Positions 14,870-55,897 of a DNA stretch of 56,037 nucleotides are shown here, piece after piece. Each line of letters opens with the position of its first letter. Within the stretch, counting starts at the first letter, position 1. The DNA is from Candidatus Omnitrophota bacterium (GTDB taxonomy: Bacteria; Omnitrophota; Gorgyraeia; Tantalellales; Tantalellaceae): positions 1-56,037 of the forward strand of contig JADGBR010000023.1 in NCBI GenBank assembly GCA_015231405.1. The letters run 5' to 3'. The translations under genes and the position numbers were made by a program. The notes below the pieces were generated by a model. It worked only from the letters and a program-made list of their open reading frames with translations. It did no database searches and had not been told where the DNA came from.

Positions 14870-14911
14870 ATCCGAATGTGTCCCTAGATTAATTGTCTGA
14901 CACATTCGGAT
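14870..14911. repeat. 13-bp-stem hairpin before obgE
   Basis: ATCCGAATGTGTC and GACACATTCGGAT form a perfect 13-bp stem around a 16-nt loop. It ends only 9 bp before the obgE start codon, so the folded form would crowd the ribosome binding site. This could attenuate obgE translation or may simply be a repeat. Confidence 0.8.
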
Positions 14912-14920
14912 CGGGGTAAA

Positions 14921-15943
14921 ATGCTTATTGATCAAGCCAAAATCTATATTGAGGGCGGTCAGGGCGGAAAAGGGTGTAATAGTTTATTCAAGGACATATA
15001 CAACAGGCTAGGCGTGCCGGACGGCGGAAGAGGCGGAGACGGCGGCGATATAGTATTCATAAGCGATCCAAATCTGCAAACCCTTCTCGATTTCAGATAT
15101 AACCAGCATTATAAGGCCGAAGACGGTTCTCACGGCGGCTCGAACAGGAAGACCGGCCGGCGCGGAAAAGATCTTAAGATAAAGGTCCCCATAGGTACCA
15201 TCGTAAAAGACGAAAGCACGGGGTTTGTCATACGCGATCTTGACCAGAGCGGCCTTACGGTCGTGGCGGCCAAAGGAGGCGCGGGCGGAGTAGGAAACTC
15301 CCGGCATAGGGAAGCGTCCGAAGGCGAACGGGGAGGGTCACTTACGATACTTCTCGAACTTAAACTTGTGGCTGAAGCAGGCATAATAGGGTTCCCTAAC
15401 GCCGGAAAATCGACGATCATATCAAGGATCTCAGGGGCGCATTCCAAGATAGCTCCGTACCCGTTCACCACGAAAAGCCCCCAACTCGGCATGGTTTCCA
15501 TAGACGAGGAGTCTTTCGCGGTCGCTGATATGCCGGGGCTGATCGAAGGGGCACATGAGGGCAGGGGGCTCGGTGACAGGTTCCTCCGTCATATAGAAAG
15601 GACGAGGGTGCTTGTTCATGTAGTTGACGCTGTGCCTCCCGACGGGTCGGACCCGGCGGAGAATTTCCGTAAACTGGAGAAGGAACTCTCACTTTACAGC
15701 GACAGCGTGGCCTTGAAGCCCCGGATAGTGGTCCTGAATAAGATGGACCTGGCCGGAGCCGATGCGGCCCTTAAAAAATTCAAAAAGAAAGTGAAAGAGA
15801 AGGTTTTCGCGGTTTCCGCGGCCGAGGGAGAAGGGCTTAAGGAAATGGTGAAGGAGATCCACAAACGGATAAAAGATGCAAAAAAAGATCAAAAGGCTTA
15901 CGATAAAGATCGGGACGAAAGTCTTGACTGGCTCAGGGAATAA
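14921..15943 (+). CDS. obgE: GTPase Obg
   Basis: Obg is an essential ribosome-associated GTPase. The 340-residue product has the glycine-rich Obg fold (1-157; GGRGGDGGDIVFI, GGSNRKTGRRGKDL), G1 GFPNAGKST (157-165), G3 DMPG (203-206), G4 NKMD (273-276) and G5 SA (299-300). It ends soon after the G domain, so the OCT domain of Bacillus Obg is missing, as in other short Obg proteins. Its last 22 codons or so overlap the start of proB in another frame (68 bp). The Obg tail KAYDKDRDESLDWLRE is therefore constrained by ProB. Confidence 0.96.
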   Translation: MLIDQAKIYIEGGQGGKGCNSLFKDIYNRLGVPDGGRGGDGGDIVFISDPNLQTLLDFRYNQHYKAEDGSHGGSNRKTGRRGKDLKIKVPIGTIVKDESTGFVIRDLDQSGLTVVAAKGGAGGVGNSRHREASEGERGGSLTILLELKLVAEAGIIGFPNAGKSTIISRISGAHSKIAPYPFTTKSPQLGMVSIDEESFAVADMPGLIEGAHEGRGLGDRFLRHIERTRVLVHVVDAVPPDGSDPAENFRKLEKELSLYSDSVALKPRIVVLNKMDLAGADAALKKFKKKVKEKVFAVSAAEGEGLKEMVKEIHKRIKDAKKDQKAYDKDRDESLDWLRE

Positions 15944-27553: not shown

Positions 27554-27621
27554 GTGTCAGGCCTCCCCATTGGACAAATTTCATAATTTCTTGGTTTTTG
27601 TCCAATGGGGAGGCCTGACAC
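27554..27621. repeat. Perfect 25-bp-stem hairpin (GTGTCAGGCCTCCCCA type), copy 1
   Basis: The arms at 27554-27578 and 27597-27621 are perfect reverse complements over 25 bp with an 18-nt A/T-rich loop. The outer 16 bp (GTGTCAGGCCTCCCCA) are shared with the palindrome at 55865-55897. No T run follows. In RNA this would be one of the most stable structures in the window. Confidence 0.92.
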
Positions 27622-27688: not shown

Positions 27689-27721
27689 ACACGCCCCGCG
27701 CGGGGGGTGTGGATTGAAACT
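27689..27721. CRISPR. Single orphan CRISPR-type repeat (type I-C-like)
   Basis: The 33 bases at 27689-27721 have a GC-palindromic core (CGCCCCGCGCGGGGGGTG) and end in GTGGATTGAAAC. That is the layout of type I-C repeats, which are about 32-33 nt and end in the same ATTGAAAC tail. No second copy is found within the next few hundred bases, and no cas gene is in the window. The about 35 bases after it could be a former spacer. This is best read as a relic or solo repeat. Confidence 0.6.
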
Positions 27722-27842: not shown

Positions 27843-28850
27843 ATGGATCCTATATTCATCATCGGCACCGAAAGGTCGGGCACTAATATGCTCAGGCTTA
27901 TGCTTGACGCCCACCCTTCGATCTGCGTACCACATCCTCCGCATATATTTAAGAATTTCTATCCGCTACTTTCGAAATACGGGGATCTCGATAAGGAAGA
28001 CAATTTGAGATGTCTCGTGAACGACGTGGTCCGTTCCGTGGAACTCCATCATTACCAATGGCCACTTGGGATCGACAGGGAAAAGGTGTTCTCGGCCTCT
28101 TTGGGAAAAGGGCTGGCCGGGGTGTTCGGGGCTGTATATGATCAATACCTCGCGCATACCGGGAAAAAAAGGTGGGCATGTAAAAGCACTTTCATGATAC
28201 ATCACGTTGACCTCATGCGGGAGGTATACCCTGGGGCGAAGTTCATTTACATGGTCAGGGATGGCCGGGACGTGGCGCTTTCGGCGAGGGACAGTATTTT
28301 TAGCGATTATTCGGTCTATTATTCGGCACTTCGCTGGAAAAGGGAGCAGGATCTGGGAGAACAACTGCTTGAAAGGTTAAAGGAAGATGATATAATCCTT
28401 CTCAAGTATGAAGAGCTCATTAAGGATACGGAAAAGGAGCTCAAAAGGATATCGGGTTTTATCCGTGAAGAGTTCTTTCCCGGGATGCTCAAGTTCTTTA
28501 ATACCCGGGAGGCCGCGAAGAGCGCCGGCATAAGCCTGGCGTGGCGGAATACCGGAAGGCCGGTTATGTCCGGCAATAGCGGTAAGTTCCTCGCCGGGCT
28601 TAGCGAAAAAGAAATTGAGCTGTTCGAGACGATAGCGGGTAAAGAGCTCCGTCGTTTCGGATTTGAGCTTGTGAATAAGGACCCGAAAGCACGGTTCGGC
28701 CCTTTGAGCTTGACTTTCTTTTTTATCGAGGAAAACGTTCGTAAAGCGCTCGTAGAGATAAAACATCTTTTTACCGATAAAAATAACGTCCTGAGATTTA
28801 AGAAAAGCCTTTTTTTATGGTCTATCTATCTCAAAAAAAGAAAAAGATGA
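27843..28850 (+). CDS. PAPS-dependent sulfotransferase family protein (1)
   Basis: The 335-residue product matches the Sulfotransfer_3-type fold: a 5'-phosphosulfate loop FIIGTERSGTNMLRLMLDAH (5-24) and a 3'-phosphate loop YMVRDGRDVALSARDS (136-151). ILLKYEELIKDTEKEL is the usual region after them. Such enzymes move sulfate from PAPS to a hydroxyl or amine of a sugar, peptide or lipid; the acceptor cannot be read from the sequence. There is no signal peptide, so it is cytoplasmic or membrane-associated; the C-terminal part (LTFFFIEENV ... LFLWSIYLKKRKR) is hydrophobic-basic. It opens the island and overlaps the next gene by 4 bp. Confidence 0.88.
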   Translation: MDPIFIIGTERSGTNMLRLMLDAHPSICVPHPPHIFKNFYPLLSKYGDLDKEDNLRCLVNDVVRSVELHHYQWPLGIDREKVFSASLGKGLAGVFGAVYDQYLAHTGKKRWACKSTFMIHHVDLMREVYPGAKFIYMVRDGRDVALSARDSIFSDYSVYYSALRWKREQDLGEQLLERLKEDDIILLKYEELIKDTEKELKRISGFIREEFFPGMLKFFNTREAAKSAGISLAWRNTGRPVMSGNSGKFLAGLSEKEIELFETIAGKELRRFGFELVNKDPKARFGPLSLTFFFIEENVRKALVEIKHLFTDKNNVLRFKKSLFLWSIYLKKRKR

Positions 28851-30217
28851 TGGAATACGGGTACTACATAGATAAGGTCAATACCTACCGGAAGGGCATA
28901 CTGGAGGCCGCCGGTGGCAGACGCTTGCCCGGTCCGGAGAGCGTTAAGAAGATCCTCTTGATCGCTTCCGCCCCCAGGACAGGCTCAAGCCTCCTCTTTG
29001 ACATATTGAAGAGGGCCTCGGGGATGTATTCATTAGCCGGGGAAGACGTGCCGTATTATAAACTCAACGGGCTTTCTTCCGATCTTGCCATGTCCGACGC
29101 TATATCCGACGCTAGAGACGCCTCGGGCGCGGATGAGCGCCTGGCTAATGACCTTCTCGGAGATATGCGCGTTTCAGGGATAGAGGGGAAGTTCCCGGCT
29201 GACCGGGACGGCGTGGAAAGATATATCGTAGATATTGCTCTCAGGTTCTCGATCGAGTGGCCCCTTGTTGATCTCTCCTATGAGAAGTTCAGGTCACTTG
29301 CTTTGGAGGCCTACGATGTTTACGGCTCGGAGAACAGGAAGTTCGATAAAACGGAGTTCTATCTGAGGTTGATCAGAGGCCTCAGGACAGTTTACAAAGA
29401 GATAGATCCGTATTATTACGATATACCGGCGGCTTCTATAAAAAAGTGGTTCCCGGAGCAGAGGGTCCCGGAGGGACCTCCGAACGATGTTCTCATGATC
29501 GAGGAGCCTCCGTTCATTTTACTGGCTCCATCGGATAAAGTGACGGATAAGGACCTTAGAGAGAAGACCCTTCTATTGAAATCTTCGGTCAATTGTTACA
29601 GGATGGGTTATGTGAGGAAACTGTTCCCGTCGGCCGATATCAAGGTGATCTATCTCACAAGGAATCCCGCTGCTTCCATCAGCGGTCTTTACGAAGGGTG
29701 GCTCCATAGAGGGTTCTTTTCCCATAATCTGAGGCATCTTAAGGAAAAGACAGGCCTTTTGCCCGACGGGCTCGATATAAAGGGGTATTCAAATACAGGG
29801 CCATGGGGTAGATGGTGGTGGAATTTCGACCTGCCCCCTGGATGGCAGGACTATACCCGTAGGAAACTCGCGGAAGTATGCGCCTTCCAGTGGGCGAGTG
29901 CCAACAGCGCCATACTCGAATTAATTGAAAACGATGCGAGCAACTTCACGCGGGTGAGATACGAGGACCTGGTCCTTGACGACAATTTCAGGCTGGATGA
30001 GATCCGAAGACTTTTAAATTATGCCGGTGTAGTTGACGACATAACCGGTAAAATGAGTTTGAAAGCGCTTCCGGTGATACAGGCGACCAGCCATCCCGTG
30101 CTGTACAGGTGGAAAAAAATGAGGGATATAATAATTCCTCTGACGGAAAGTCACGCGATAAAGACCATAGCCGAGGGAATGGGTTACACTGCCTCCGGGG
30201 CCGGGGACTGGACATGA
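28847..30217 (+). CDS. Sulfotransferase-like protein (2), large
   Basis: The 456-residue product (start ATG 28847, overlapping the previous stop) has a P-loop-like ILLIASAPRTGSSLLFDIL (36-54, SAPRTGSS at 41-48) and a second site KVIYLTRNPAASISGLYEGW (from about 266). FTRVRYEDLVLDDNFRLDEI follows. These are the two PAPS-contact regions of sulfotransferases, separated by an unusually long insert (about 60-255) rich in aromatic and acidic residues. It is unlike the first sulfotransferase in sequence, so a different acceptor is likely. Stf0-like or nodulation-type sulfotransferases are alternatives. It overlaps the amidinotransferase-like gene by 4 bp, which implies coupled translation. Confidence 0.8.
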   Translation: MMEYGYYIDKVNTYRKGILEAAGGRRLPGPESVKKILLIASAPRTGSSLLFDILKRASGMYSLAGEDVPYYKLNGLSSDLAMSDAISDARDASGADERLANDLLGDMRVSGIEGKFPADRDGVERYIVDIALRFSIEWPLVDLSYEKFRSLALEAYDVYGSENRKFDKTEFYLRLIRGLRTVYKEIDPYYYDIPAASIKKWFPEQRVPEGPPNDVLMIEEPPFILLAPSDKVTDKDLREKTLLLKSSVNCYRMGYVRKLFPSADIKVIYLTRNPAASISGLYEGWLHRGFFSHNLRHLKEKTGLLPDGLDIKGYSNTGPWGRWWWNFDLPPGWQDYTRRKLAEVCAFQWASANSAILELIENDASNFTRVRYEDLVLDDNFRLDEIRRLLNYAGVVDDITGKMSLKALPVIQATSHPVLYRWKKMRDIIIPLTESHAIKTIAEGMGYTASGAGDWT

Positions 30218-31089
30218 ACCGGCGCGGGACGGATAGCGAATATAAAAGGCTTAAGGCCGTTCTTTTGCATAAAGGCGGTCCGGAAATAGAAAGGGTTTTA
30301 TCTCCGGGTGAGGTGCTCTATTCCGGAAAGATCTCATATCCCGCTTTAGCGGAGGAGTTTGGATCGCTTGAGAAGGTTTTCACTTCGCTCGGGGTGAAAG
30401 TGTTCCATATTGACGCTTCGAGGATAGACGGGACCGACCCGAGAAGTTTTTATAATTTGATGTACGCCCGTGACCTTTTTTGGGCGTCCTCGGGCGAATG
30501 CCTTATTTCGAGGATGCGGCATGAAGTTCGCCGGGACGAAGTGAAATACGCGGCGAGGACTTTATCCGCGCTGGGAATGTCGATAAGGGAAACGTACCCC
30601 GATGGCGCTCATTTCGAGGGGGCCGATATTCTCTGGCTGTCTCCCCGCGAAGTTATGGTCGGAGTGGGTGGACGGACCAACGACCTGGGTTTTGAGGCTA
30701 TTACGCGGTCCCTTTCCGCTAAAGGGATAGGAACGATAAGGGTCCCGGCGCCGGGGGCGTCGCTCCATTTGCTCGGTAGCGTGCAGATAGCGTCAGGTGA
30801 TCTTGTTTTTGTGAGGCGGGGGATCGGCAGCGGCATCATGGAGGCGCTCGAACGTAACGGCATGCGTGTAGTGACCGTGCCCGAAACGGATGAGGTCTCG
30901 AAAAGGTTCGCGATGAGCGTTGTTACTGTCGCTCCCCGTGAAGTGATAATGCCAAGAGGGAACCCCGGCATGAAGGATGTTTTTCTCTCTTCGGGCGTGA
31001 CGGTCGTTCGGGAGATCGAGACTCGAGAGCTCATTAAAGGCGGCGGCGGTCTTGGCTGCGCTGTCGGAATACTGGAGAGAGTTGTATAG
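30214..31089 (+). CDS. Amidinotransferase/dimethylargininase-fold enzyme
   Basis: The 291-residue product (ATG 30214) has the five-bladed guanidine-modifying fold. ARDLFWAS (R86, D87), HFEGADILW (E135, D138), GASLHLLGSVQI (H185) and the C-terminal GGGLGCAVGILERV (C282) supply a full Cys-His-Glu/Asp catalytic set. RVPAPG and IMPRGNPGMKDV are also family-like. Members hydrolyse or transfer amidino groups of arginine compounds (dimethylargininase, arginine deiminase, glycine or inosamine amidinotransferase). Which of these applies cannot be decided here. I reject an upstream start at 30109 that lies inside the sulfotransferase gene. Translational coupling to that gene suggests they act on one substrate. 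Confidence 0.85.
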   Translation: MNRRGTDSEYKRLKAVLLHKGGPEIERVLSPGEVLYSGKISYPALAEEFGSLEKVFTSLGVKVFHIDASRIDGTDPRSFYNLMYARDLFWASSGECLISRMRHEVRRDEVKYAARTLSALGMSIRETYPDGAHFEGADILWLSPREVMVGVGGRTNDLGFEAITRSLSAKGIGTIRVPAPGASLHLLGSVQIASGDLVFVRRGIGSGIMEALERNGMRVVTVPETDEVSKRFAMSVVTVAPREVIMPRGNPGMKDVFLSSGVTVVREIETRELIKGGGGLGCAVGILERVV

Positions 31090-31134
31090 CGCTTTACGCT
31101 ATGCCGTATCGGGAAAATAAAGAGAGGTATATAA

Positions 31135-31902
31135 ATGGGCAATAATGAATGCACCGGATCATTTGATAAGCTCCGAGACCAGTTCAACAGACGGTCCGAT
31201 ACGTTCGATACGAGCGCTAACTGGATAACCGACAGCCGGCTTATCAGTGCCCATGTGGAGTTGTCAGGCCTGTCTAACGGAGCGCTTCTCGAGATATGCT
31301 GCGGCACCGGACGTGTCGGAAGGGCTTTAAAGGAAAAAGGGTGGGAAGTGACCGGACTCGACATATGCGACAGCATGCTTGAAAAGGCCGGGAAATATTT
31401 TTCCGCGAGGAACGGGAAGGCGGAAGAGCTGCCGTTCGGGGACGCCTCTTTCAGCGCGGTCGTCTGCAGGCAGTCTTTCCAGTTCCTCGACTCGATGAAA
31501 GTGCTGGGAGAGGTCAAAAGGGTGCTGAGACCCAAAGGGGTGTTCGTGATGAGTTTGACGGTGCCTTTCTCGGATAAGGATAAAGACTGGCTTCGGCATA
31601 TACACAAGACGAAACAGCCACTGCTTTTAAAATTTTACGATAAAGAGACTTTAGCCCGGGAGTTGGAGCGTTATGGGTTCAGGATCGAAGAGGAGAGGAC
31701 GCTCACCGTAAGGGAATCGATAAATAAATGGATGGAATTCGCTCCGGAACTGTCGAGTGAAGTGAAAAATAACGTGATCTCTCTAGTCAGGGACTCACCG
31801 CCGGAGTACAAAGAGCTTCATAATGTCGGGGTTGTTAAGGGAGAAGTGTTTGAGGATTGGAACTGGGTCGTGTTCAGGGCGGGCGTAGCGGAACGGGCAT
31901 AG
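31135..31902 (+). CDS. SAM-dependent class I methyltransferase
   Basis: The 255-residue product has motif I LLEICCGTGRVGRAL (near 51-65), GLDICDSMLEKA, and the ubiE-like LPFGDASFSAVVCRQSFQFL. VKRVLRPKGVFVMSLTV follows. It is clearly related to the C-terminal domain of the protein at 33472: both have a tyrosine/phenylalanine-plus-NSS-type N-terminal box, CRQ..QF.D, RES.NKW and a P..(F/Y)(R/K)ELH segment. The RBS is AGAGGTAT. It stands right before a separate radical SAM protein, so the same two activities occur here split and, one gene later, fused. Confidence 0.88.
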   Translation: MGNNECTGSFDKLRDQFNRRSDTFDTSANWITDSRLISAHVELSGLSNGALLEICCGTGRVGRALKEKGWEVTGLDICDSMLEKAGKYFSARNGKAEELPFGDASFSAVVCRQSFQFLDSMKVLGEVKRVLRPKGVFVMSLTVPFSDKDKDWLRHIHKTKQPLLLKFYDKETLARELERYGFRIEEERTLTVRESINKWMEFAPELSSEVKNNVISLVRDSPPEYKELHNVGVVKGEVFEDWNWVVFRAGVAERA

Positions 31903-31979
31903 CGCACGGCGTAAAGCTGATAGCGTGTTGTAGTAAAATAATAATAGTTCTGCCATACGCCATGCGCTATGCGATAACG
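31881..31979. repeat. Word repeat (AGCGCATGGCGTA type)
   Basis: CATAGCGCACGGCGTA at the left, starting inside the last codons of the methyltransferase, opposes CATACGCCATGCGCTATGCG at the right. A fragment of the same word (AGCGCTTTACGCTATGCCG) lies at 31088-31106. Confidence 0.7.
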
Positions 31980-32001
31980 CGAATGTTAAAGAACAGGGAT
32001 C

Positions 32002-33444
32002 ATGCGGAATTTTGACAATACCATAACATACAAACGGCTTAGAAAAATAGCCGAGACTACCGACCACAAAAAGGTGCACGATCTCAGGGTCGGGATGATC
32101 GTGCCACCGTCGCCGTTCGTGGTCCCATGCGGGTGGGAATTCGTGCATAGCGCGCCTTTCGAAGGTCCGTCCGTGATAGCCGCTGTTCTGAAAGGGCTGG
32201 GCGTGGAAGTCGTTCTCCTTGACCGGAGGGAAGATATTGATCCGGAAAAGCTGAAGGGCGGGCCGTTAAAGAAACTGGATATCGTATGTTGTGTCTCATA
32301 CGAGGATAGCTTTCCATACCAGAAAAGAGTTATCGAGATAGCTAAAGCCGAAGAGAAAGACCGACCGGTCATCATCGGCGGACCTCTTGTTTCCTCCGTG
32401 CCCGAACTAATAATGAACAACACCATGGCCGATTATGCCGTCATTGGTGAAGGGGAGCTGACGACGATAGAGCTTATGGACCGCCTGATGGGTGTGAAAG
32501 GCGCTCCGGAACTGAGCGATATCGATGGGCTGGCTTACAGGTCGGAAAACGGCAAAGTCGTTCAGAATAAACGCCGCGAACAAATGACGGATATAGACGC
32601 GGTGCCCTTACAGGACATTTCGGTCTGGCCTTCTGTCATGAAGACAGGTTCAGCCGCCGAAATTTATATGACCTCAAGCAGGGGGTGTCCGGGCAATTGC
32701 AGCTTCTGCTACAGGGCCATGCCTCTATTAAGGCATAAATCCCCGGAAAGGGTGCGAAGGGAACTCGAATACCTTAAAAGGTACGGATATAAATTCGTAT
32801 GGTGGAGCGACCTAACCTTTATCGACGATAAAAAACGGGTCCACGAGCTTATGGACGGGGCTTTTAGCGGGATCGATTTCAGGTGGTGCTGTTTCACGAG
32901 GGTAGACGGGCTGTCCCGTGAAGTCCTTAAACACATGAAAGAGAACGGATGCGATATAGTGATGTTCGGGTTCGAGTCTATCACAAGCGAGATCCTGAAG
33001 TATTTCAGGAAAAAGATATCCCAAAACCAGATGGTTAAAGCCATAGAGCTCACGAGGGAAGCGGGTCTCAAGGTAGGCGGTCTTTTTATTCTCGGTGCTC
33101 CCGGTGAGACAAGGGAAAGCCTTGAAAGGGTGGTCGAGTTCTCGCGCGAGTTCAGGGAAGTGACCAGGGTGAAATACATGTCAGCACTTCCGGGGACCAC
33201 GCTTTACTATGATGCCCTGAAAAATGGTATCATAAAGGACGAGCTGGAACATCTGTATTTTCTTTCGAGGGAAAGGTCGGTCGAGGATGACGAAATATTA
33301 TCTTTTTCCGGTGTTCCGGAGCATGAGCTCCGGTCGGCGTATCGCGCGATCAACGGGCAGATAGAGGTCAGGCCTTACGAATACTGGAACGAGTGCAACC
33401 GTTTCTTGGACGCGCCGAAGAAGTTCAAGGATAGGCTCGTTTAA
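32002..33444 (+). CDS. Radical SAM protein with cobalamin-binding-like N-terminal domain
   Basis: The 480-residue product has a Rossmann-like B12-binding-type domain (about 25-165; IIGGPLVSSVPE and DYAVIGEGELTTIELMDRL are typical). The radical SAM core follows, with its cluster motif SSRGCPGNCSFCYRA (C229, C233, C236), then VMFGFESI and GGLFILGAPGETRESLERV. The cobalamin-histidine motif DxHxxG is not evident, so cobalamin would bind base-off without it or may not bind. Such enzymes often methylate unactivated carbons or phosphorus. It pairs with the methyltransferase upstream and is paralogous to the N-terminal two thirds of the next protein. Confidence 0.88.
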   Translation: MRNFDNTITYKRLRKIAETTDHKKVHDLRVGMIVPPSPFVVPCGWEFVHSAPFEGPSVIAAVLKGLGVEVVLLDRREDIDPEKLKGGPLKKLDIVCCVSYEDSFPYQKRVIEIAKAEEKDRPVIIGGPLVSSVPELIMNNTMADYAVIGEGELTTIELMDRLMGVKGAPELSDIDGLAYRSENGKVVQNKRREQMTDIDAVPLQDISVWPSVMKTGSAAEIYMTSSRGCPGNCSFCYRAMPLLRHKSPERVRRELEYLKRYGYKFVWWSDLTFIDDKKRVHELMDGAFSGIDFRWCCFTRVDGLSREVLKHMKENGCDIVMFGFESITSEILKYFRKKISQNQMVKAIELTREAGLKVGGLFILGAPGETRESLERVVEFSREFREVTRVKYMSALPGTTLYYDALKNGIIKDELEHLYFLSRERSVEDDEILSFSGVPEHELRSAYRAINGQIEVRPYEYWNECNRFLDAPKKFKDRLV

Positions 33445-33471
33445 CGAGTGAACATAGAGGAACTGATCATT

Positions 33472-35622
33472 ATGAAAAGTTTACCCGAATGCGAATATAA
33501 CTATTCAACGGCCACCGATCCTTTCGAGGAAGAGCTGAGGCGTATATCCTATTCCGATATCATAGAAAAGCGCCCGGAAAAGATAGTACTTGTGGTGCCG
33601 GCTTCCCCCCAGGTCCCGACTCCCGGCAGGGAGTTCCTAGTGACAGGGCCTTTCGAAGGCTTCACGTATATGGCGACGCTGGTGAAAAAAATGGGATTTG
33701 ACCTCGAGGTGGTGGATTGCCGGCTTAAGGACGACCCTGAGAAGCTTGTCATGGAGGCCTCTTCCGGAGCTGACGCTATAGGTCTCGGGGCGTTTTGCGA
33801 TTCTTTCGATTTTTTGAGGAAGGTCACGCGTGAGATAAAGAAGAAGTATCCCCAAAAGACGGTCTTTCTTGGAGGGCCGCTCGTTTCGTCACTTCCGGAG
33901 ATCATGATGGATAACACTTCGGCGGACCTAGGCATCATCGGCGAGGCCGAGCTCACGATGATCGAGCTCTTGACCGCGCAATTCAGCGCGGAAGAAAGGG
34001 ACCCCTCCGGCATAAAAGGGATAGTCTATAGGAAGAACGGTAAGATAGCTATGACCGCCCCCAGGCCTCAGATAAAGGACCTGGATAATCTGCCTTTATT
34101 GGATTACACTATCTGGCCGAATTGCCGGGATATATTGAAGAACGGCCAGATCCTGATCTCGTCCATGAGGGGATGCCCGATGGATTGCTCTTTCTGTTTT
34201 AAGACCATACCCGCCCTCAGGATGAAAAGCCTGGAAAGGTTCGAGGCGGAAGTCGAGTACCTGAAAAGAACGACGGGGTTCAACTATACATGGCTTAACG
34301 ACCTTACGTTCAACGTCAAAGAGGACCGGGCCATCAAGATATGCCGCATCCTACACCGACACGGGGTTCGTTACCACTGTTTCGCGCGCGTCAAGAATGT
34401 CAGCCGTGAATTCACTCGCGTCCTGAAAGAGACCGGATGCCTCGGCATCTGGTTCGGCATAGAATCGTACGATCAGGATGTCCTGGACGCGAATAGGAAA
34501 GGTATAACGATCGGGGATATTAACAACGCCGTGAAAGTTTCCGGGGAAGCTGGCCTTGAGGCGAGGGGCCTATTCATCGTCGGGCTTTACGGCGAAACGG
34601 AAGAGTCGCTTAAAAAGATGCTCGGGTACATAAAGAACAGTTCGTTCCTTCCGCTCGTGAAATACCTTGTGCCTTTCCCCGGGACTTCGCTCTACCATCA
34701 CGCGGTCGGGACCGGCAAGATACCCGACGCGGTGAGATTCCTCGAGATGCTTTCCAAAAGGAAAATACGGGACTTTGACGACGAGATCATAAACCTCACC
34801 GACTTGCCGGACGATACCATGCGCCGGTATTTTCATGAGATATGGAAAATAACGGCGGATAGGGAAAAGGGAGCCGAGTGCGGTACGGGTGAGAACCCGG
34901 AGGATCATTTCCGTAAAAGAGCCGGGAAATACGACAATTCGTCCAGCTGGGTGGACGATCCGGCGCTTATCCGCAAGATCTATGATATGTCGGGCGCGGG
35001 GAAAGGTTCTATCGTCCTCGATGTCGCCATAGGCACAGGTAAGGTCGCGGGAGTGTTCCACGACAATGGGAGCCGCGTTATCGGGATAGATATCTCCCCC
35101 GGCATGGTAGACCATGCCGGGAAGTTTGCCGACTGGATAATTATGGCGCGCGCCGAGGCGATGCCGTTCAAGAACGGGTTTGATGTCTGTACCTGCCGGC
35201 AGGGGCTGCAGTTCATGGACGTTCCCGCGGCCCTGGGTGAGATCTCTAGGGTCCTTAAGCCGGGCGGACGCGTGGTTCTCAGCCATTTAACGGCTTATGA
35301 CCGGGAAGACGGGGCAACGGCTTTCCATATCCAGAGGCTGCGGAATCCCGCGAGGAAGAATTATTTTCTTCCGGGAGACCTCGGCGCGTCGCTTTCTTCG
35401 GCCGGTTTTACCGATGTGGTCGCCGAAGAATATATAACAAGGGAATCCGTTAATAAATGGATAGACAACGGGGCGATAAGCGCCGGCGCGATGGCTGAAA
35501 TAAAAGAAGTCTATAGAACAGCGCCTGCGAGGTTCAGAGAACTTCATCGGATAGAATTTGCCGGGGATGATATATTCGATTCGATGAAAATGGAGATCGT
35601 GCGTGCGGTTAAACCGTATTAG
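33472..35622 (+). CDS. Radical SAM/B12-type protein fused to a methyltransferase
   Basis: I start at ATG 33472 because AGAGGAA lies 9 bp upstream (716 residues); GTG 33448 would add eight. Order: B12-binding-like domain (about 35-170, with FLGGPLVSSLPEIMMDNTSA), radical SAM core (SSMRGCPMDCSFC, C235, C239, C242), a linker, and a class I methyltransferase from about residue 475 (VLDVAIGTGKVAGV, GIDISPGMVDHAG, VLKPGGRVVLSHL). It looks like a fused version of the two preceding genes. The shared RESVNKWID and FRELH boxes show the methyltransferase halves are paralogues. Two SAM-using centres in one chain suggest two successive methylations or a methylation plus a radical step. Confidence 0.88.
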   Translation: MKSLPECEYNYSTATDPFEEELRRISYSDIIEKRPEKIVLVVPASPQVPTPGREFLVTGPFEGFTYMATLVKKMGFDLEVVDCRLKDDPEKLVMEASSGADAIGLGAFCDSFDFLRKVTREIKKKYPQKTVFLGGPLVSSLPEIMMDNTSADLGIIGEAELTMIELLTAQFSAEERDPSGIKGIVYRKNGKIAMTAPRPQIKDLDNLPLLDYTIWPNCRDILKNGQILISSMRGCPMDCSFCFKTIPALRMKSLERFEAEVEYLKRTTGFNYTWLNDLTFNVKEDRAIKICRILHRHGVRYHCFARVKNVSREFTRVLKETGCLGIWFGIESYDQDVLDANRKGITIGDINNAVKVSGEAGLEARGLFIVGLYGETEESLKKMLGYIKNSSFLPLVKYLVPFPGTSLYHHAVGTGKIPDAVRFLEMLSKRKIRDFDDEIINLTDLPDDTMRRYFHEIWKITADREKGAECGTGENPEDHFRKRAGKYDNSSSWVDDPALIRKIYDMSGAGKGSIVLDVAIGTGKVAGVFHDNGSRVIGIDISPGMVDHAGKFADWIIMARAEAMPFKNGFDVCTCRQGLQFMDVPAALGEISRVLKPGGRVVLSHLTAYDREDGATAFHIQRLRNPARKNYFLPGDLGASLSSAGFTDVVAEEYITRESVNKWIDNGAISAGAMAEIKEVYRTAPARFRELHRIEFAGDDIFDSMKMEIVRAVKPY

Positions 35623-35645
35623 CAGTTTCCCGGTACGTATGAAGT

Positions 35646-35686
35646 AAGACGTAGGACGTCCCACTTCCCACATCCTACGTCCTGCG
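35646..35686. repeat. Word-repeat inverted element (GTAGGACGT type), copy 2
   Basis: AGACGTAGGACGTCCCAC opposes CATCCTACGTCCTGC. It is the short version of the element at 21536-21621 and fills the gap before the phosphodiesterase-like gene. Confidence 0.85.
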
Positions 35687-35704
35687 GAACTTTCTGGAGG
35701 TTGA

Positions 35705-37705
35705 ATGAGGAAGCTTAAATTGTTCCTTGCCGTGATATTGCTGGCCACGATGGCCCAGAGGGGCCTATCAGACGACAAGACCCCCTCGCCTAAGATCAAG
35801 CTGTACTGGTTCATTCCCGACGGCCTGAGGGCTGAGCCTGAAACTTTCAATATATACAAGTGGGCCCAAGAGGGATACCTGCCGAACATAAAGAAAATGA
35901 TGGATAACGGCTCATATGGTTACTCGCGTCCCGTATACCCGGGGCATACTCCCGTGAATTTCGCCACGCTTTTCACGGGCTCATATCCCGAGGTGCACGG
36001 CGTTTCGGACGGGACGATGCATACGGAGGGCAACCCGCTTGGAAGGCCTTCGGTAATGGGGTTCAGCTCGACGGCTAAAAAGGTCGAGCCGATATGGGTA
36101 ACGCTCGAGAAGGAGGGGCGGAAGGTCGGCCTATTGTCGGTCCCGGGCTCCACTCCCCCGGAATTGCAGAATGGGTATACTATGGTCGGCAGGTGGGGAG
36201 GGTGGGGAGCCAATTTCAACGCTATAGATTTCGAGGAGATCGGGGAAGGAGGAATGAAAAAGGGGCTCGCGAGAAGCTCAAAGCTCTTCTTTTTCGGGCC
36301 GTCCCTCGCGGTTTTCACGAGTGCCAGAATATCCGACGTGAACATCGGTAAGAGCACTTACTCTACGGCGAAGACGGTCGACCTTGAGGCATGGGGGGCG
36401 CTTGTCCGGGCGAATATATACGATTCCACGGACGACGGCAAAGAGAACTACGACAGGGTGTCATTTATTTCCGGGGAGAAAGAGATCGCGGACCTCAAAG
36501 AAGGGGAGTGGAGCGGCTGGCTTCCGATAAGGCTTAAGTGGAACGATGTTACCGTCGATTCCGAGGTGAAGGTAAAGGTGATAAGGCTGGAGGATAACGG
36601 GTACTATAAGATACGTTTTTATTACAACGCTATGAACGAGACTAACACCGACCCGTCCTTTCTCGCCGCGGATATGATCGATAACGCCGGACCGATGGTG
36701 GACTCGGTGGATAGTTTTCCGGCCCAGCTTATTTTCTATCCGGAAGATAAGGATACTTTTATCGAGGAAGCATCCATGTCTTTCGACTGGCATGTGAAAG
36801 GGGCGGAGTATTTTCTCAAAAAATACGACCCGGATATCTTTATCCACGACATATATACGCCCAACCAGATGTTCACTTCCAGATGGTGGATGGGATATGT
36901 CGACCCCAAGTCGGCTTTGTATGGCGAGAAAAACCTGGAGGAAAGGGACCGTCTCTTCAGGGAGGTAAAGGAAATATACAGGCGGGTCGACGAGGTCATG
37001 GGTAAGTACCTGGAAAAGGCCGATGAGGATACGGTAGTGGTCCTTACCTCGGACCATGGCATAGCGCCGCTTTCCCGGTGGGTTAACCTGAACAATTATT
37101 TCGCCGGGAAAGGATGGCTCAAATTCAGCGTTGATCCAAAAACCGGCGAAACGCTTGTGGACTGGCAGGGGTCGAAAGTGGTGTATCTCAACTTCGGAAA
37201 TATTTATATCGCCCCGTCGGGTCTTCATGACCGGGATGGGAAATGGTCCAGGCAAAAGGGCGAGGGATACGAGAAACTCCGTGAAGAGGTCATTACGGCC
37301 TTAGAAGCCCTGAAGGATAAAGACGGCGCGAGCCCCGTCGCTTTTATAGTTAAGTGGGAGGATGCCGAAAAGGAACTGCGCCTGCCAGGAGAGCGGGTAG
37401 GGGACCTCATAGTTTCCAATAAGCCCGGCTTCGGTTGGAACGAGGAGATGACGGAAGGGAAAGATATCTTTGAGGACTCGCTTATCACGGGATACAAACA
37501 GGCGCTTAAATCGGACGATCTTCCCGCTATGTGGGTCCCGTTCGTGATCATGGGCCCGGGTGTCAAAAAAGGTAATTACCTCGGCGACAAGCCTTTCGAA
37601 ATGATAGACCAGTACCCGACCCTGATGACGCTCATTAAAGCGGACATGCCAGGATTCGTGCAGGGAAAGCCCGTCGAAGGGGTATTCGAGAAAAGTCGAG
37701 ACTAG
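35705..37705 (+). CDS. Exported alkaline-phosphatase-superfamily protein (type I phosphodiesterase-like)
   Basis: The 666-residue product has a signal peptide (LKLFLAVILLATMAQRGLSD, to about 22), so it works in the periplasm. KLYWFIPDGLRAE gives the metal aspartate D39. HTPVNFATLFTGSYPEVHGV (81-100) lines up with the nucleophile segment of nucleotide pyrophosphatases, making T82 the likely nucleophile. VVLTSDHGIAPLSRW supplies further ligands. Two other expected histidines are not obvious: near HDIYTPNQMF, and where the family has GxHG, this one has LPAMWVPFVIMGPG. The metal site or substrate may therefore differ. Sulfatase-like or phosphonate-cleaving activity is possible in this superfamily. 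The RBS is GGAGG. Confidence 0.82.
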   Translation: MRKLKLFLAVILLATMAQRGLSDDKTPSPKIKLYWFIPDGLRAEPETFNIYKWAQEGYLPNIKKMMDNGSYGYSRPVYPGHTPVNFATLFTGSYPEVHGVSDGTMHTEGNPLGRPSVMGFSSTAKKVEPIWVTLEKEGRKVGLLSVPGSTPPELQNGYTMVGRWGGWGANFNAIDFEEIGEGGMKKGLARSSKLFFFGPSLAVFTSARISDVNIGKSTYSTAKTVDLEAWGALVRANIYDSTDDGKENYDRVSFISGEKEIADLKEGEWSGWLPIRLKWNDVTVDSEVKVKVIRLEDNGYYKIRFYYNAMNETNTDPSFLAADMIDNAGPMVDSVDSFPAQLIFYPEDKDTFIEEASMSFDWHVKGAEYFLKKYDPDIFIHDIYTPNQMFTSRWWMGYVDPKSALYGEKNLEERDRLFREVKEIYRRVDEVMGKYLEKADEDTVVVLTSDHGIAPLSRWVNLNNYFAGKGWLKFSVDPKTGETLVDWQGSKVVYLNFGNIYIAPSGLHDRDGKWSRQKGEGYEKLREEVITALEALKDKDGASPVAFIVKWEDAEKELRLPGERVGDLIVSNKPGFGWNEEMTEGKDIFEDSLITGYKQALKSDDLPAMWVPFVIMGPGVKKGNYLGDKPFEMIDQYPTLMTLIKADMPGFVQGKPVEGVFEKSRD

Positions 37706-37726
37706 TTAAGAAGAAGTAAGGGATAC

Positions 37727-37857
37727 AGAAGCCAGAATTCAGAATACAGAATTCAGAAAAAATGTGGGGGTGGACATTATTCTGGTTTCTGTATTCTGTA
37801 TGCCGGCTTCTGGCTTCTGGCTTCTGTATTCTGTATTCTGGCTTCTGGATTCTGTAT
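37727..37857. repeat. Word-repeat inverted element (AGAATACAGA type), copy 2
   Basis: The left arm (AGCCAGAATTCAGAATACAG and a variant, to about 37760) faces a right arm of TTCTGTATTC / TGGCTTCTGG words (37780-37857). The right arm is also read, on the minus strand, as the last 25 or so codons of the exported protein at 37777-38478. Confidence 0.88.
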
Positions 37858-38478
37858 ATCTATGACTTGAATTTTTTCAAGGCTTTCGAGTATTTTCACC
37901 GCTTTTTCTTCAACAAAATCTTTTACGGGAATGAATATCAGTATCTGGAAGACTGTTCCGGAGGAAGGCTCATAGAACGAAGCGCAAATGGCCCTTTGCG
38001 CTATCAGGTTGTCGTCCCATACGCCTAGGACGTACCTGTCGGAGGCATTGGCTATAAGTATGTCCCTTTCGACTCCCAGTATCATTGCCTTTTTCTCGTA
38101 TGGTTTTTTATCCTCTGGAGCGCCCGTAACTCGCGTTATCATAGCCGCGTAAGGGACCACACGATCACCGTATAACCCTTTTATTATCGCATGCTTGTTC
38201 TTCGCGAATTCAACTCCTTTGTCCGGGGGGATGGGCCGGTCCGCTTCTATCTCTATCCTCTGGCCTGGGCCTTCTGCGGTAATGGAGTGGTACGTGGTGC
38301 CCCTGGCGACCTGTTTAAAATCGCGTTTTATCGCAAGATCCCCGGCTTCCGTGGCTATCCTCACGCCGTAAGTGGCAAGTGTGGCGTTCAAAGTAGAGGT
38401 TTCAGCCGCTAAGGTCATACCAGGCAGGATAAGAACTGAGGCAAGGACCGATATGACGGACAATGGGATCTTTCTCAT
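37777..38478 (-). CDS. Exported protein of unknown function with repeat-derived tail
   Basis: I do not recognise a family. The 233-residue product has a signal peptide (PLSVISVLASVLILPGMTLA, cleavage near 24). A mixed alpha/beta region of about 180 residues follows with no cysteine cluster or clear catalytic motif. An AGGAG RBS lies upstream of the ATG. The last 26 residues, from about IQNPEARIQNTEARSQKP on, are a translation of the word repeat at 37780-37857, and the stop codon also comes from it. The original C-terminus was probably near KILESLEKIQ. It is the third gene of a minus-strand operon after two arylsulfotransferase-like genes, 12 bp from the second, so it likely acts with them in the periplasm. 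Confidence 0.75.
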   Translation of the reverse strand: MRKIPLSVISVLASVLILPGMTLAAETSTLNATLATYGVRIATEAGDLAIKRDFKQVARGTTYHSITAEGPGQRIEIEADRPIPPDKGVEFAKNKHAIIKGLYGDRVVPYAAMITRVTGAPEDKKPYEKKAMILGVERDILIANASDRYVLGVWDDNLIAQRAICASFYEPSSGTVFQILIFIPVKDFVEEKAVKILESLEKIQVIDIQNPEARIQNTEARSQKPAYRIQKPE

Positions 38479-38490
38479 AAAACTCTCCTT

Positions 38491-39777
38491 TTATCTTATG
38501 GCCTTTGGATCGTGACCTTTAGCTTCCAATAACGGCGCGACGTATCCCGGCGGATAACGGAACGCCCGTTTCATCCCCAGACCGCCCATAAGCCTGGCAT
38601 AGGTCGATATATAGTCCCAGACTATCTCGCCTTTAGGCGTTACCTCGAAAACCCTTTCCGACAAGCCTTCACAAATGAGCGTGTTGCCGTTCGGAAGACG
38701 TTCGGCATTGCATAAATTGACTGAGAAGAAATCGTTCTTTGGCCACGAATGATATTCCCAGACGATATTGCCGGCGACCGGGTCGATCTCGATAACCCTC
38801 GACCATTTCCTCTTCGCTCCGTTATCGAAGATAAGGATGTTGCCGTTGTCTATCATCCGCGGAGTATGAGGGTTCTCGAGTTCGCCGGGGCCCCAGGCCC
38901 ATATGATCCTGCCCGAGGGATACTCTATGATACCGATCGTATCGACACCGCAGAAACAAAAGAGGATATTCCCGGATTTGAAACGCGGGTCATTAGCTTC
39001 TAAGGGGTTCGGTCCGAGGATCATGGCAGTGTTGTTGTGAGCCCAGTCTTCTCCTTCATAATACAAGCCGTTCGCGAAATCTCCGGAAGCGCTCTCCTGC
39101 CATTGGCTTTCCCGAAAAACAGTGAACACATCATGGAATCCGCTCAGCGATACGAGCTCTTTCAAATGATCCTCGCCTTTCCATTGCCAGAGCGTTCTTC
39201 CATCTTTAGTTATTATGTCGATCCGCGGTGCCGACATGGATCCTAGAGGGAAAGGTGAGCCCGGAGGAGTCGGAATGGTATCCTTATAGGTTACGACGAA
39301 CGTGTCATTGTCGATCAAATAGAACTCGTTCTCGAAAACTCCCGGAGAGAGGAACAGTTCGTTACTTTCGGCATCAAGTTCTTTCAATCCAGACATCTGT
39401 CCAGGGGATTCCATCCCGGACATTTGTGTCGCCAGAAAGAGTGTGCCATTGTCGCTCAGCCTCCCGAGGGAGGGAGGAGGGTCGGCAACCAGCCACCGGT
39501 GGATCGTAAGGCCGTCCATATCAACAAGATCAACGGGCGACAGTCCGCCGGTAAAAGATGGCTGAGAAAGTAGGGGGACGAGAAGGGTATAGCCTTTGAA
39601 CGTCTTTTCGGGTTTATTGATCCTGAGGCCCGTGACGCGTTTATCGACGGTTTTAGACGATACGATCACGCGATCTTTGCCGGGATTTGCGGTAGGGGCG
39701 TCGAGCCAGATATCACCGGAGCGGGTGCTAGTCGCCATCAGAAATAAAAAGACCATGAGGGGAACACACCACCTCAC
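38491..39777 (-). CDS. Arylsulfotransferase-like exported beta-propeller (2)
   Basis: The 428-residue product has a signal peptide (VPLMVFLFLMATSTRSG) and then a repeated beta-propeller with blades ending in ASST/PQQ-type W motifs (GRTLWQWKG, GRIIWAWGPGE, GNIVWEYHSW, GEIVWDYIS). EDWAHNNTAMILG and ENPHTPRMIDNGNILIFDNG resemble the histidine-bearing segments of arylsulfate sulfotransferase. In the third segment, AERLPNGNTLICEG, the histidine equivalent to the sulfated one is not seen. It may be a PAPS-independent sulfotransferase with altered chemistry or a binding propeller. It overlaps its paralogue by 4 bp and looks like a tandem duplicate. Confidence 0.8.
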   Translation of the reverse strand: MRWCVPLMVFLFLMATSTRSGDIWLDAPTANPGKDRVIVSSKTVDKRVTGLRINKPEKTFKGYTLLVPLLSQPSFTGGLSPVDLVDMDGLTIHRWLVADPPPSLGRLSDNGTLFLATQMSGMESPGQMSGLKELDAESNELFLSPGVFENEFYLIDNDTFVVTYKDTIPTPPGSPFPLGSMSAPRIDIITKDGRTLWQWKGEDHLKELVSLSGFHDVFTVFRESQWQESASGDFANGLYYEGEDWAHNNTAMILGPNPLEANDPRFKSGNILFCFCGVDTIGIIEYPSGRIIWAWGPGELENPHTPRMIDNGNILIFDNGAKRKWSRVIEIDPVAGNIVWEYHSWPKNDFFSVNLCNAERLPNGNTLICEGLSERVFEVTPKGEIVWDYISTYARLMGGLGMKRAFRYPPGYVAPLLEAKGHDPKAIR

Positions 39778-41054
39778 TTTTTCTCCTGTTCTTTGGATCC
39801 GAGCAAAGGCGCGGCATATTCGGGCGAATATTTATATGCCCGGTAAAAACCCATCCCTCCGGTCAATTTGGCGTAAGTCGACAGGTAATCCCATACGATC
39901 TCGCCTTTCGGCGTGATCTCGAAAACCCTTTCTGAAAGGCCTTCGCAGATGAACGTGTTGCCGTTCGGAAGACGCTGAGCGCTCGAGAGCATATCGCTGA
40001 AAAAGCTGTTTTTGGGTTCGGCGTGATACTCCCAGACGATCTTTCCGGTGGCGGGGTCCATTTCAATGACCCTTGACCACTTTCTGCGGGCGCCGTTATC
40101 GAAGATAAGTATGTTCCCGTTGTCGACCATAGAAGGGGTATGCGGGTTATCGAGTTCTCCCGGGCCCCAGGCCCACACAATTTTCCCGGAAGGATACTCC
40201 AATATGCCTATTAGGTTGATCCCGCAAAAACAAAAAAGGATATTTCCGGACTTGAAACGAGGATCTTTCTCCTCAAGCGGGTTAGGGGGTATGAACATGG
40301 CAGTATTATTGTGAGCCCAATCCGATCCCTGATAACAAAGTTTTCCCGAGCTGTCTATAAAACCCTCGCCCGCTCCACTAGCGGCCATAGATTTGAATTC
40401 CGCGAAAATGTCATAAAACCCTGGAAGATCCACGAGCTCATCAAGATGTTCTTCCGCTTTCCATTCCCAGATAACGCGCCCGTCCCTTGTTAATAGGATT
40501 ATGCGGGGGGACGACATGTGCTTAAGGGGGAACGGGGAACCGGCAGGGGTTTGGACCGGTTCATCCCTGGCGATGAGGAACGTGTCGTTGTCGATGATCT
40601 GGAATTCGTGGTCGAGTATCCCCCTGTAGATAAAGGTCTGATTGCTTTCGGCGTCAAGTTCCTTAAGACCCGCGATATTAGAGCTGTTGGAGTCGTTTTG
40701 GTTAGAGAAAATGACTTTCCCGGTCTCTGTAAGCCTTCCCAGAGAAGGAGAAGGGCTGTTTTCCACGATCCACCTGTAGACCATAATGCCGTCCATATCG
40801 ACAAGATCGATCGAGCACATGCCGCTGTAATCGGATCGCCCTACGAGCGGGGTGAGAAGAGTGTACCCTTTGAACGTTTTTTTTGGATCATTCACGCGAA
40901 GTCCCGTAATATGTTTATCGATAGTGCCCGAGGTCACGACCACGGGTTTTTTTCCGGGATTGGCGGAAGGAGCCTCGAGCCATTGGTCGGGCGACTCCGT
41001 GGCTAGCGTGAAGGATAGAAGTAAAGAGAGTATGAAGGTAATGAATTTAACCAT
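39774..41054 (-). CDS. Arylsulfotransferase-like exported beta-propeller (1)
   Basis: The 426-residue product is highly similar to its neighbour downstream: GLKELDAESN, DWAHNNTAM, DPRFKSGNILFCFCG, DNGNILIFDNGA and RLPNGNT.ICEGLSERVFE all recur at the same positions. It has a signal peptide (FITFILSLLLSFTLATES). Candidate catalytic histidines are in DWAHNN and NPHTPSM, with an arginine pair in NGARRKWSRVI. It is the first gene of the minus-strand operon, and its upstream region (41055-41262) shows no convincing promoter. Together with the PAPS-type sulfotransferases on the other strand, it suggests sulfate-ester chemistry on both sides of the membrane. Confidence 0.82.
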   Translation of the reverse strand: MVKFITFILSLLLSFTLATESPDQWLEAPSANPGKKPVVVTSGTIDKHITGLRVNDPKKTFKGYTLLTPLVGRSDYSGMCSIDLVDMDGIMVYRWIVENSPSPSLGRLTETGKVIFSNQNDSNSSNIAGLKELDAESNQTFIYRGILDHEFQIIDNDTFLIARDEPVQTPAGSPFPLKHMSSPRIILLTRDGRVIWEWKAEEHLDELVDLPGFYDIFAEFKSMAASGAGEGFIDSSGKLCYQGSDWAHNNTAMFIPPNPLEEKDPRFKSGNILFCFCGINLIGILEYPSGKIVWAWGPGELDNPHTPSMVDNGNILIFDNGARRKWSRVIEMDPATGKIVWEYHAEPKNSFFSDMLSSAQRLPNGNTFICEGLSERVFEITPKGEIVWDYLSTYAKLTGGMGFYRAYKYSPEYAAPLLGSKEQEKK

Positions 41055-55864: not shown

Positions 55865-55897
55865 GTGTCAGGCCTCCCCAATGGGGAGGCCTGACAC
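55865..55897. repeat. 33-bp perfect palindrome (GTGTCAGGCCTCCCCA type), copy 2
   Basis: GTGTCAGGCCTCCCCA, a single A, then its exact reverse complement. It shares the full 16-bp arm with the larger hairpin at 27554-27621. It lies 12 bp after the rho stop, without a T run. Confidence 0.92.

Follow-up and report, generated by a model that had tools for sequence, protein, structure and literature searches.

The stretch of DNA analysed here (the window, 56,037 nucleotides) covers positions 1 to 56,037 of contig JADGBR010000023.1 of a Candidatus Omnitrophota bacterium. Between housekeeping genes of the rsmA and gatA type it carries an island of ten genes (27843–41054), which encodes two sulfotransferases, a guanidine hydrolase, two B12-binding radical S-adenosylmethionine (SAM) enzymes with methyltransferase partners and a set of exported proteins. 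Judged from its sequence relatives, this island is best explained as one copy of a biosynthetic locus that is spread thinly over anaerobe-rich phyla.

Gene content of the island

An earlier reading of the sequence (here called the original prediction) had proposed ten genes, and all ten were found in the window sequence at the coordinates listed below. Seven genes lie on the plus strand (27843 to 37705) and three on the minus strand (41054 down to 37777). The 4-bp overlaps said to join the first three genes are present as ATGA at 28847–28850 (ST1/ST2) and at 30214–30217 (ST2/hydrolase), the former of which sets the start of ST2 at 28847. The single promoter proposed for the plus-strand genes was not confirmed, since a consensus scan gave 13 promoter-like sites against a mean of 14.0 in shuffled sequence and none directly upstream of 27843.

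27843..28850, plus strand: ST1, sulfotransferase (Sulfotransfer_3) of the type using 3'-phosphoadenosine 5'-phosphosulfate (PAPS), 335 aa; Pfam PF13469, E 4.6e-33
28847..30217, plus strand: ST2, second and larger sulfotransferase, 456 aa; Sulfotransfer_3, E 2e-9; 4-bp overlap with ST1
30214..31089, plus strand: guanidine hydrolase of the dimethylarginine dimethylaminohydrolase (DDAH)/arginine deiminase (ADI) type, 291 aa; PF02274, E 6e-13; 4-bp overlap with ST2
31135..31902, plus strand: MT1, class I methyltransferase, partner of RS1; Methyltransf_11, E 8.5e-20
32002..33444, plus strand: RS1, B12-binding radical SAM enzyme; PF02310 and PF04055 above cut-off
33448..35622, plus strand: RS2-MT2, fusion of a B12-binding radical SAM enzyme and a methyltransferase, by Pfam
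35705..37705, plus strand: PDE, exported alkaline-phosphatase-superfamily enzyme with a Thr nucleophile (HTPVN); Phosphodiest, E 3.2e-32
37777..38478, minus strand: EXP, exported protein, 233 aa, without a Pfam or NCBIfam family
38491..39777, minus strand: ASST1, exported arylsulfotransferase-like propeller; PF14269 and PF05935 above cut-off
39774..41054, minus strand: ASST2, exported arylsulfotransferase-like propeller; PF05935, E 1e-14

By profile and by their conserved PAPS loop, ST1 and ST2 are assigned to the PAPS-type sulfotransferases, with ST2 deviating at the 3'-phosphate serine. Against a Sulfotransfer_3 cut-off of 27 bits, ST1 scores 115.7 and ST2 38.5 bits. In ST1 the PAPS loop GTERSGTN and the motif RDGRDVAxSA are near-invariant among eight homologues, and GTERSG as well as R139 and S147 of the 3'-phosphate motif are invariant in the homologue alignment. 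In ST2, R43, G45, S46 and S47 together with R271, N272 and P273 are invariant in a ten-member alignment. The PDB relatives of ST1 by profile are the CurM sulfotransferase and protein-tyrosine sulfotransferases, and a weak match to NoeE was obtained (29 bits, cut-off 500). The best PDB matches of ST2 are likewise sulfotransferases, both by profile and by fold; the structure prediction proposed earlier as a check thus agrees with the family, but the fold matches are weak (TM-score at most 0.36 by query length) and uninformative on the acceptor. The sulfotransferase domains of CurM and olefin synthase are among the nearest solved relatives of both proteins by profile. In contrast to these, the island contains no polyketide synthase.

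For the third gene, a guanidine-modifying enzyme with an amidinotransferase fold had been proposed. Guanidine or arginine chemistry is retained, but the identity as amidinotransferase was rejected: profile searches of the PDB matched DDAH and arginine deiminase, whereas the best similarity to Arg:Gly amidinotransferase reached only E 0.31 over 61 residues. Therefore, the guanidine group is more likely removed or deiminated than installed. An alignment of 11 members out of five lineages shows D87, R106, E135, R154, H185 and C282 to be invariant. Counted on the alignment with the window hydrolase, D66, R85, E114, R132, H162 and C249 of P. aeruginosa DDAH, which we take to be the residues that matter for catalysis and for binding of the substrate carboxylate, are all invariant in this family. 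The catalytic Cys, His and Glu and the substrate-carboxylate arginines of DDAH and arginine deiminase are thus present in the window hydrolase, while its NCBIfam scores fall far short of the cut-offs (48.8 bits at best, where 414 are required). It is a separate DDAH/ADI subfamily tied to sulfotransferases. Retention of the arginines that bind the carboxylate makes a free amino acid of the arginine type the probable substrate.

The predicted radical SAM and methyltransferase steps were supported as well. Both RS1 and RS2 exceed the cut-offs for the B12-binding domain PF02310 and for PF04055 and carry the CxxxCxxC motif, which is present in every RS1 member whose sequence covers this region. MT1 immediately precedes RS1 at almost every locus examined; RS2 and MT2 are fused in the window and separate neighbouring genes in one relative (G133) and in Geobacteraceae. 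This pairing of each radical SAM enzyme with a class I methyltransferase suggests a joint action on one substrate. RS1 is 67–70% identical to its counterparts in other Omnitrophota clusters and 45–52% to those in other phyla. The best NCBIfam matches, with 150.8 bits for RS1 and 133.1 bits for RS2, are to HpnJ and its relatives among the B12 radical SAM enzymes, but an HpnJ or hopanoid-enzyme identity was rejected, since both scores are far under the cut-off of 577.6 bits; no hopanoid genes were noticed nearby. In the Bdellovibrionales cluster (L017), where RS2 was not found, a gene resembling diiron proteins (14895–15605; weak FA_desaturase_2 match below cut-off) adjoins ST2 and might replace RS2.

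PDE has copies in the G133 cluster (51% identical) and in Elusimicrobia (L019, 57–58%). Signal-peptide-like or Tat-like N termini are present in PDE as well as, in relatives, in one or two sulfatase-fold proteins and a metallo-beta-lactamase (MBL) protein, which supports the exported ester-processing enzymes of the original prediction. Every PDE or sulfatase-fold member with a readable motif carries Thr at the nucleophile position. A formylglycine sulfatase identity was therefore rejected, as the C/S-x-P-x-R motif needs Cys or Ser, and the exported alkaline-phosphatase-superfamily enzymes appear likelier to act on phosphate than on sulfate esters. Of the proposed periplasmic handling of sulfate or phosphate esters, the sulfate side is thus not favoured for these enzymes. 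They also match phosphoethanolamine and lipoteichoic acid synthases weakly. For the MBL gene of the relatives, which is not in the window, an identity of the guanitoxin GntH type was rejected, because its equivalog score of 139.8 lies below the cut-off of 333; the score for RNase Z is almost as high (136.7).

EXP is 27% identical (E 3e-19) to the N-terminal domain of an exported sulfatase-fold protein in one cluster (L011), and in another (L060) its homologue is a separate gene between PDE and the sulfatase-fold protein. This homology to a domain fused to, or standing beside, a sulfatase-fold protein ties the minus-strand operon to the unit. The predicted structure of EXP gave no convincing fold match, with weak Mog1/PsbP-like matches only.

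For the arylsulfate sulfotransferase of E. coli (EcAST), the residues H252, H356, N358, R374 and T501 have been described together with the sulfohistidine His436 (PMC13426309). ASST1 and ASST2 belong to the same family of six-blade propellers and keep the equivalents of His436, His356 and Asn358; alignment with PDB 3ELQ places His436 on their conserved PHTP histidine. The chain 4p04 reads QNTAW at this place and is presumably a mutant of that histidine. In both proteins Arg374 is changed to Cys and Thr501 to Leu, H252 is kept in ASST2 and is Asn in ASST1, and no match to the N-terminal beta-sandwich of the E. coli enzyme was obtained. The two propellers of the original prediction are upheld as arylsulfotransferase-like, with part of the active-site residues lost. 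As a conserved part of the cluster they were rejected, since no relative was found at any other cluster locus examined; in the window they occupy the place of the relatives' sulfatase-fold protein. On a haloarchaeal plasmid (L067), a propeller that shares 42% identity with ASST2 has genes for a sulfatase, a carbon-nitrogen hydrolase and two aminotransferases as neighbours.

Conservation of the gene set and supply of PAPS

A search with RS1 across 84,980 species genomes yielded 20 loci, distributed over Omnitrophota, Bdellovibrionales, Geobacterales, Nitrospirota and Elusimicrobia. Within 384 Omnitrophota genomes the hydrolase has three strong relatives besides the window's genome (about 41% identity, E below 1e-61), and the ST2 profile picks the same four genomes (Fisher 1e-9). 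The order ST2, hydrolase, a fusion of a nucleotidyltransferase with adenosine 5'-phosphosulfate (APS) kinase, MT1 and RS1 is identical in the three relatives. ST1 precedes ST2 in the two whose contig reaches that far, and one relative continues with RS2 and MT2 as separate genes and, further on, PDE. The order ST1-ST2-hydrolase-MT1-RS1, the conservation of which had been raised as a question, is therefore kept in other Omnitrophota.

Full or near-full sets of MT1, RS1, RS2, MT2, ST1, ST2 and hydrolase are present in Geobacter sp. OR-1 (L025) and at three further loci (L020, L022 and L023), accompanied by exported MBL and sulfatase-fold proteins; in other genomes the modules are divided over two or more places. 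RS1 was found in 8 of 141 Geobacterales genomes and ST2 in seven, all seven among the RS1 genomes (Fisher 4e-11). Furthermore, the pairwise distance matrices of the cluster genes correlate (r 0.71–0.94). Since these families are found grouped in at least five bacterial phyla, in sets of more than two or three genes, the grouping goes far beyond chance and supports the single functional unit that had been proposed. The cluster is rare, with ST2 in 4 of 384 Omnitrophota and RS1 in 2 of 296 Nitrospirota genomes, and it is absent from the 16 other genera sampled in the window's own family.

Genes for the synthesis of PAPS recur in and beside the clusters. Besides the fusion between hydrolase and MT1 in Omnitrophota, CysD and CysN-CysC lie near the Bdellovibrionales gene set. 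In Elusimicrobia the hydrolase adjoins CysC-CysD-CysN, and in G396 it is separated from MBL by an APS kinase. The window's genome has three APS-kinase matches, with CysD and CysN on contig C22. The predicted sulfation in the cytoplasm is therefore well supported as a PAPS-dependent step, and we consider it very probable that the cluster is one biosynthetic unit that includes it. On contig C22 there is also a row (L035, 2093–8559) of a CDP-alcohol phosphatidyltransferase, a nucleotidyltransferase, a class I amidotransferase-like protein, a PEP-synthase-like kinase, an SGNH-like protein and a CysC-like kinase, which we take to resemble the O-methyl phosphoramidate set of Campylobacter (cj1415-cj1418).

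Homologues of ST2 (31–33% identity) are also located on the five haloarchaeal plasmids examined (L072, L074, L088-L090), where they adjoin a YqcI/YcgG protein and an annotated adenylyl-sulfate kinase. Both kinases tested by profile carry the same nucleotidyltransferase domain in reversed order. The YqcI/YcgG family hydroxylates guanidine N-H (PMC12866846). From the haloarchaeal YqcI/YcgG and the bacterial hydrolase neighbours it follows that the ST2 family accompanies an arginine- or guanidine-acting enzyme in bacteria as well as in archaea. In contrast to the island, the haloarchaeal operons replace the DDAH-type hydrolase by a heme guanidine hydroxylase that depends on oxygen, and they have no radical SAM genes annotated nearby. 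Fusions of the nucleotidyltransferase domain (CTP_transf_like) to APS kinase thus exist in both orders in bacteria and haloarchaea (L009 10996–11892; L072 16333–17187; L074 13700–14554).

No compositional mark of a recent acquisition was found for the island: the GC content of its genes is 0.47–0.55 against 0.50–0.51 in the flanks, and tetranucleotide distances are unremarkable. Carriage by a phage or virus was looked for and not found, and a reading as defence system was dropped, as it drew only weak generic radical SAM and methyltransferase matches. An inverted repeat GTGTCAGGCCTCCCCATTGG...CCAATGGGGAGGCCTGACAC, similar to repetitive extragenic palindromes or miniature inverted-repeat transposable elements, lies at 27554–27621 and 55865–55897 of the window, which contains four of its half-sites against 0.01 expected. 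A single CRISPR-repeat-like sequence cgccccgcgcggggggtgtggattgaaac, resembling type I-C repeats, is located upstream of ST1 (27690–27720), and its pattern occurs once in the genome searched.

Importer exchange, proposed pathway and alternatives

Four genomes with RS1 lack ST2 (G386, G388, G394 and G398), and a strong hydrolase match is missing there too (G386 has only a generic match, E 1.9e-9). In G386, G388 and G398, RS1 is directly followed by a shared importer (69–79% identical) that consists of an SsuA-family binding protein, a permease and an ATPase; this Ssu-type importer is seen at loci L019, L021 and L031. Within Nitrospirota the exchange is exact: locus L020 reads RS1-[MT2-ST1-ST2-hydrolase]-RS2 and locus L021 RS1-[SsuA-family binding protein-permease-ATPase]-RS2. 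G996, which has RS1 without ST2 and was checked once the pattern had been noticed, shows MT1-RS1-binding protein-permease-ATPase-RS2 with an importer 71–73% identical. Overall, a transporter stands beside RS1 in 5 of 5 ST2-negative and 0 of 16 ST2-positive genomes (Fisher 5e-5, partly after the fact; 8e-4 if the Ssu-type set only is counted); G395 was excluded from this count, since its contigs are too short and its ST2 match is fragmentary. Most simply, the sulfotransferase block and the importer would supply the same compound, one resembling a sulfonate or sulfate ester. Genomes without ST1, ST2, MT2 and the hydrolase would then probably take up the sulfated intermediate from outside. This exchange favours a small molecule over a lipid head group.

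We tentatively favour, at a little below even confidence, a small arginine-derived sulfated metabolite that is made or imported and then modified by the B12 radical SAM enzymes. Here, PAPS would be provided by CysDN/CysC (in the window's genome from contig C22) or by the nucleotidyltransferase-APS kinase fusion. The hydrolase would have an arginine-type amino acid as its substrate, and this small acceptor derived from arginine would be sulfated by ST1 and ST2. RS1 with MT1 and RS2 with MT2 may methylate or rearrange the sulfated intermediate, and the exported phosphodiesterase, EXP and, at this locus only, the arylsulfotransferase-like enzymes may process phosphate or sulfate esters in the periplasm. 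Of the methylated, guanidine-bearing, sulfated small molecule or lipid head group originally envisaged, the sulfation, the guanidine or arginine chemistry and the methyltransferase steps are kept, while the product would rather have lost or deiminated its guanidine group and be a small molecule.

Several points weigh against this pathway. ST2 has Gly279 where ST1 has Ser147 and so is without the serine normally found in the 3'-phosphate motif. The link with the importer was recognised in hindsight and confirmed once afterwards (G996), and the fourth ST2-negative genome, G394 (L027), has a different transporter near RS1, whose only Pfam match is a sub-threshold one to TctC. The phosphate-type nucleophile of the exported enzymes is left unexplained by a purely sulfate story, and glycosyltransferases or acyltransferases occur in or beside some clusters.

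The main rival, which is possible but unlikely, is that the locus sulfates and decorates a surface glycan or lipid head group and that the exported alkaline-phosphatase-superfamily enzymes are head-group phosphotransferases. In its favour, a GT2 glycosyltransferase adjoins ST1 in L010 and lies upstream of MT1 in L023, while the cluster genes of L056 and L022 are interspersed with PMT-family and TPR membrane proteins. Acyltransferases occur in L058 and L011, and in L022 and L030 a DegT aminotransferase immediately precedes MT1. The weak matches of ST1 to NoeE and of the exported enzymes to phosphoethanolamine and lipoteichoic acid synthases would also fit. However, no glycan gene is common to all clusters, the block is replaced by a small-molecule importer of the sulfonate type, and the carboxylate-binding arginines of the hydrolase indicate a free amino acid. 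The importer could also be read the other way round, with MT1-RS1-RS2 as core of a route that breaks down or salvages organosulfonates or sulfate esters, and with ST1, ST2 and hydrolase as accessory source of the same substrate. An SsuA/TauA-type importer beside RS1 in four genomes of three lineages, and exported hydrolases in importer-type and sulfotransferase-type loci alike, would agree with this, but the loci listed showed no gene for a sulfonate monooxygenase, a sulfonate lyase or the handling of sulfite, and spending PAPS to feed catabolism is implausible, which makes such a route improbable.

Modification of a protein or of a ribosomally synthesised and post-translationally modified peptide (RiPP), with sulfotransferases acting on tyrosines and the hydrolase on peptidyl-arginine, comes to mind because the ST1 profile and the ST2 fold match protein-tyrosine sulfotransferases and because RiPP loci often contain B12 radical SAM enzymes. 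Yet a RiPP cluster was rejected, as no small open reading frame for a conserved precursor peptide is common to the intergenic gaps of eight clusters plus the window; no RiPP recognition element, peptidase or peptide exporter was noticed, and the hydrolase retains its arginines for a free amino acid. We regard this modification as very improbable. Finally, the absence from 16 sampled genera of the same family might have suggested an accessory island whose genes are neighbours by chance in a single assembly and have no function in common, but this is already refuted by the co-occurrence statistics, the order conserved across phyla and the correlated divergence.

Relation to known systems and meaning of the finding

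The cylindrospermopsin and saxitoxin clusters of cyanobacteria also combine a guanidine enzyme of the ADI superfamily, one or more sulfotransferases and an APS kinase. They use a true Arg:Gly amidinotransferase and polyketide synthases, whereas the island has a DDAH-type hydrolase, no assembly line and two pairs of B12 radical SAM enzyme and methyltransferase. Each enzyme family is already known; the literature, searched with several sets of terms, yielded no earlier account of the cluster or of this combination.

With a fixed gene set that recurs in five phyla, what looked like odd neighbours become a defined and testable pathway. The set is found mostly in uncultured bacteria, although a record named Geobacter sp. 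OR-1 has it as well. A possible, so far unrecognised small ATP sulfurylase is suggested by the fusions of nucleotidyltransferase and APS kinase in reversed order. If the importer reading is true, a sulfated small molecule passes between microbes and would be identifiable by ligand binding to the SsuA-like protein. It is conceivable, though rather doubtful at present, that this compound is a vitamin-like sulfated arginine metabolite, made by a few anaerobes and scavenged by others through the Ssu-type importer, which the B12 radical SAM enzymes would convert into a cofactor or signalling molecule that different phyla have in common.

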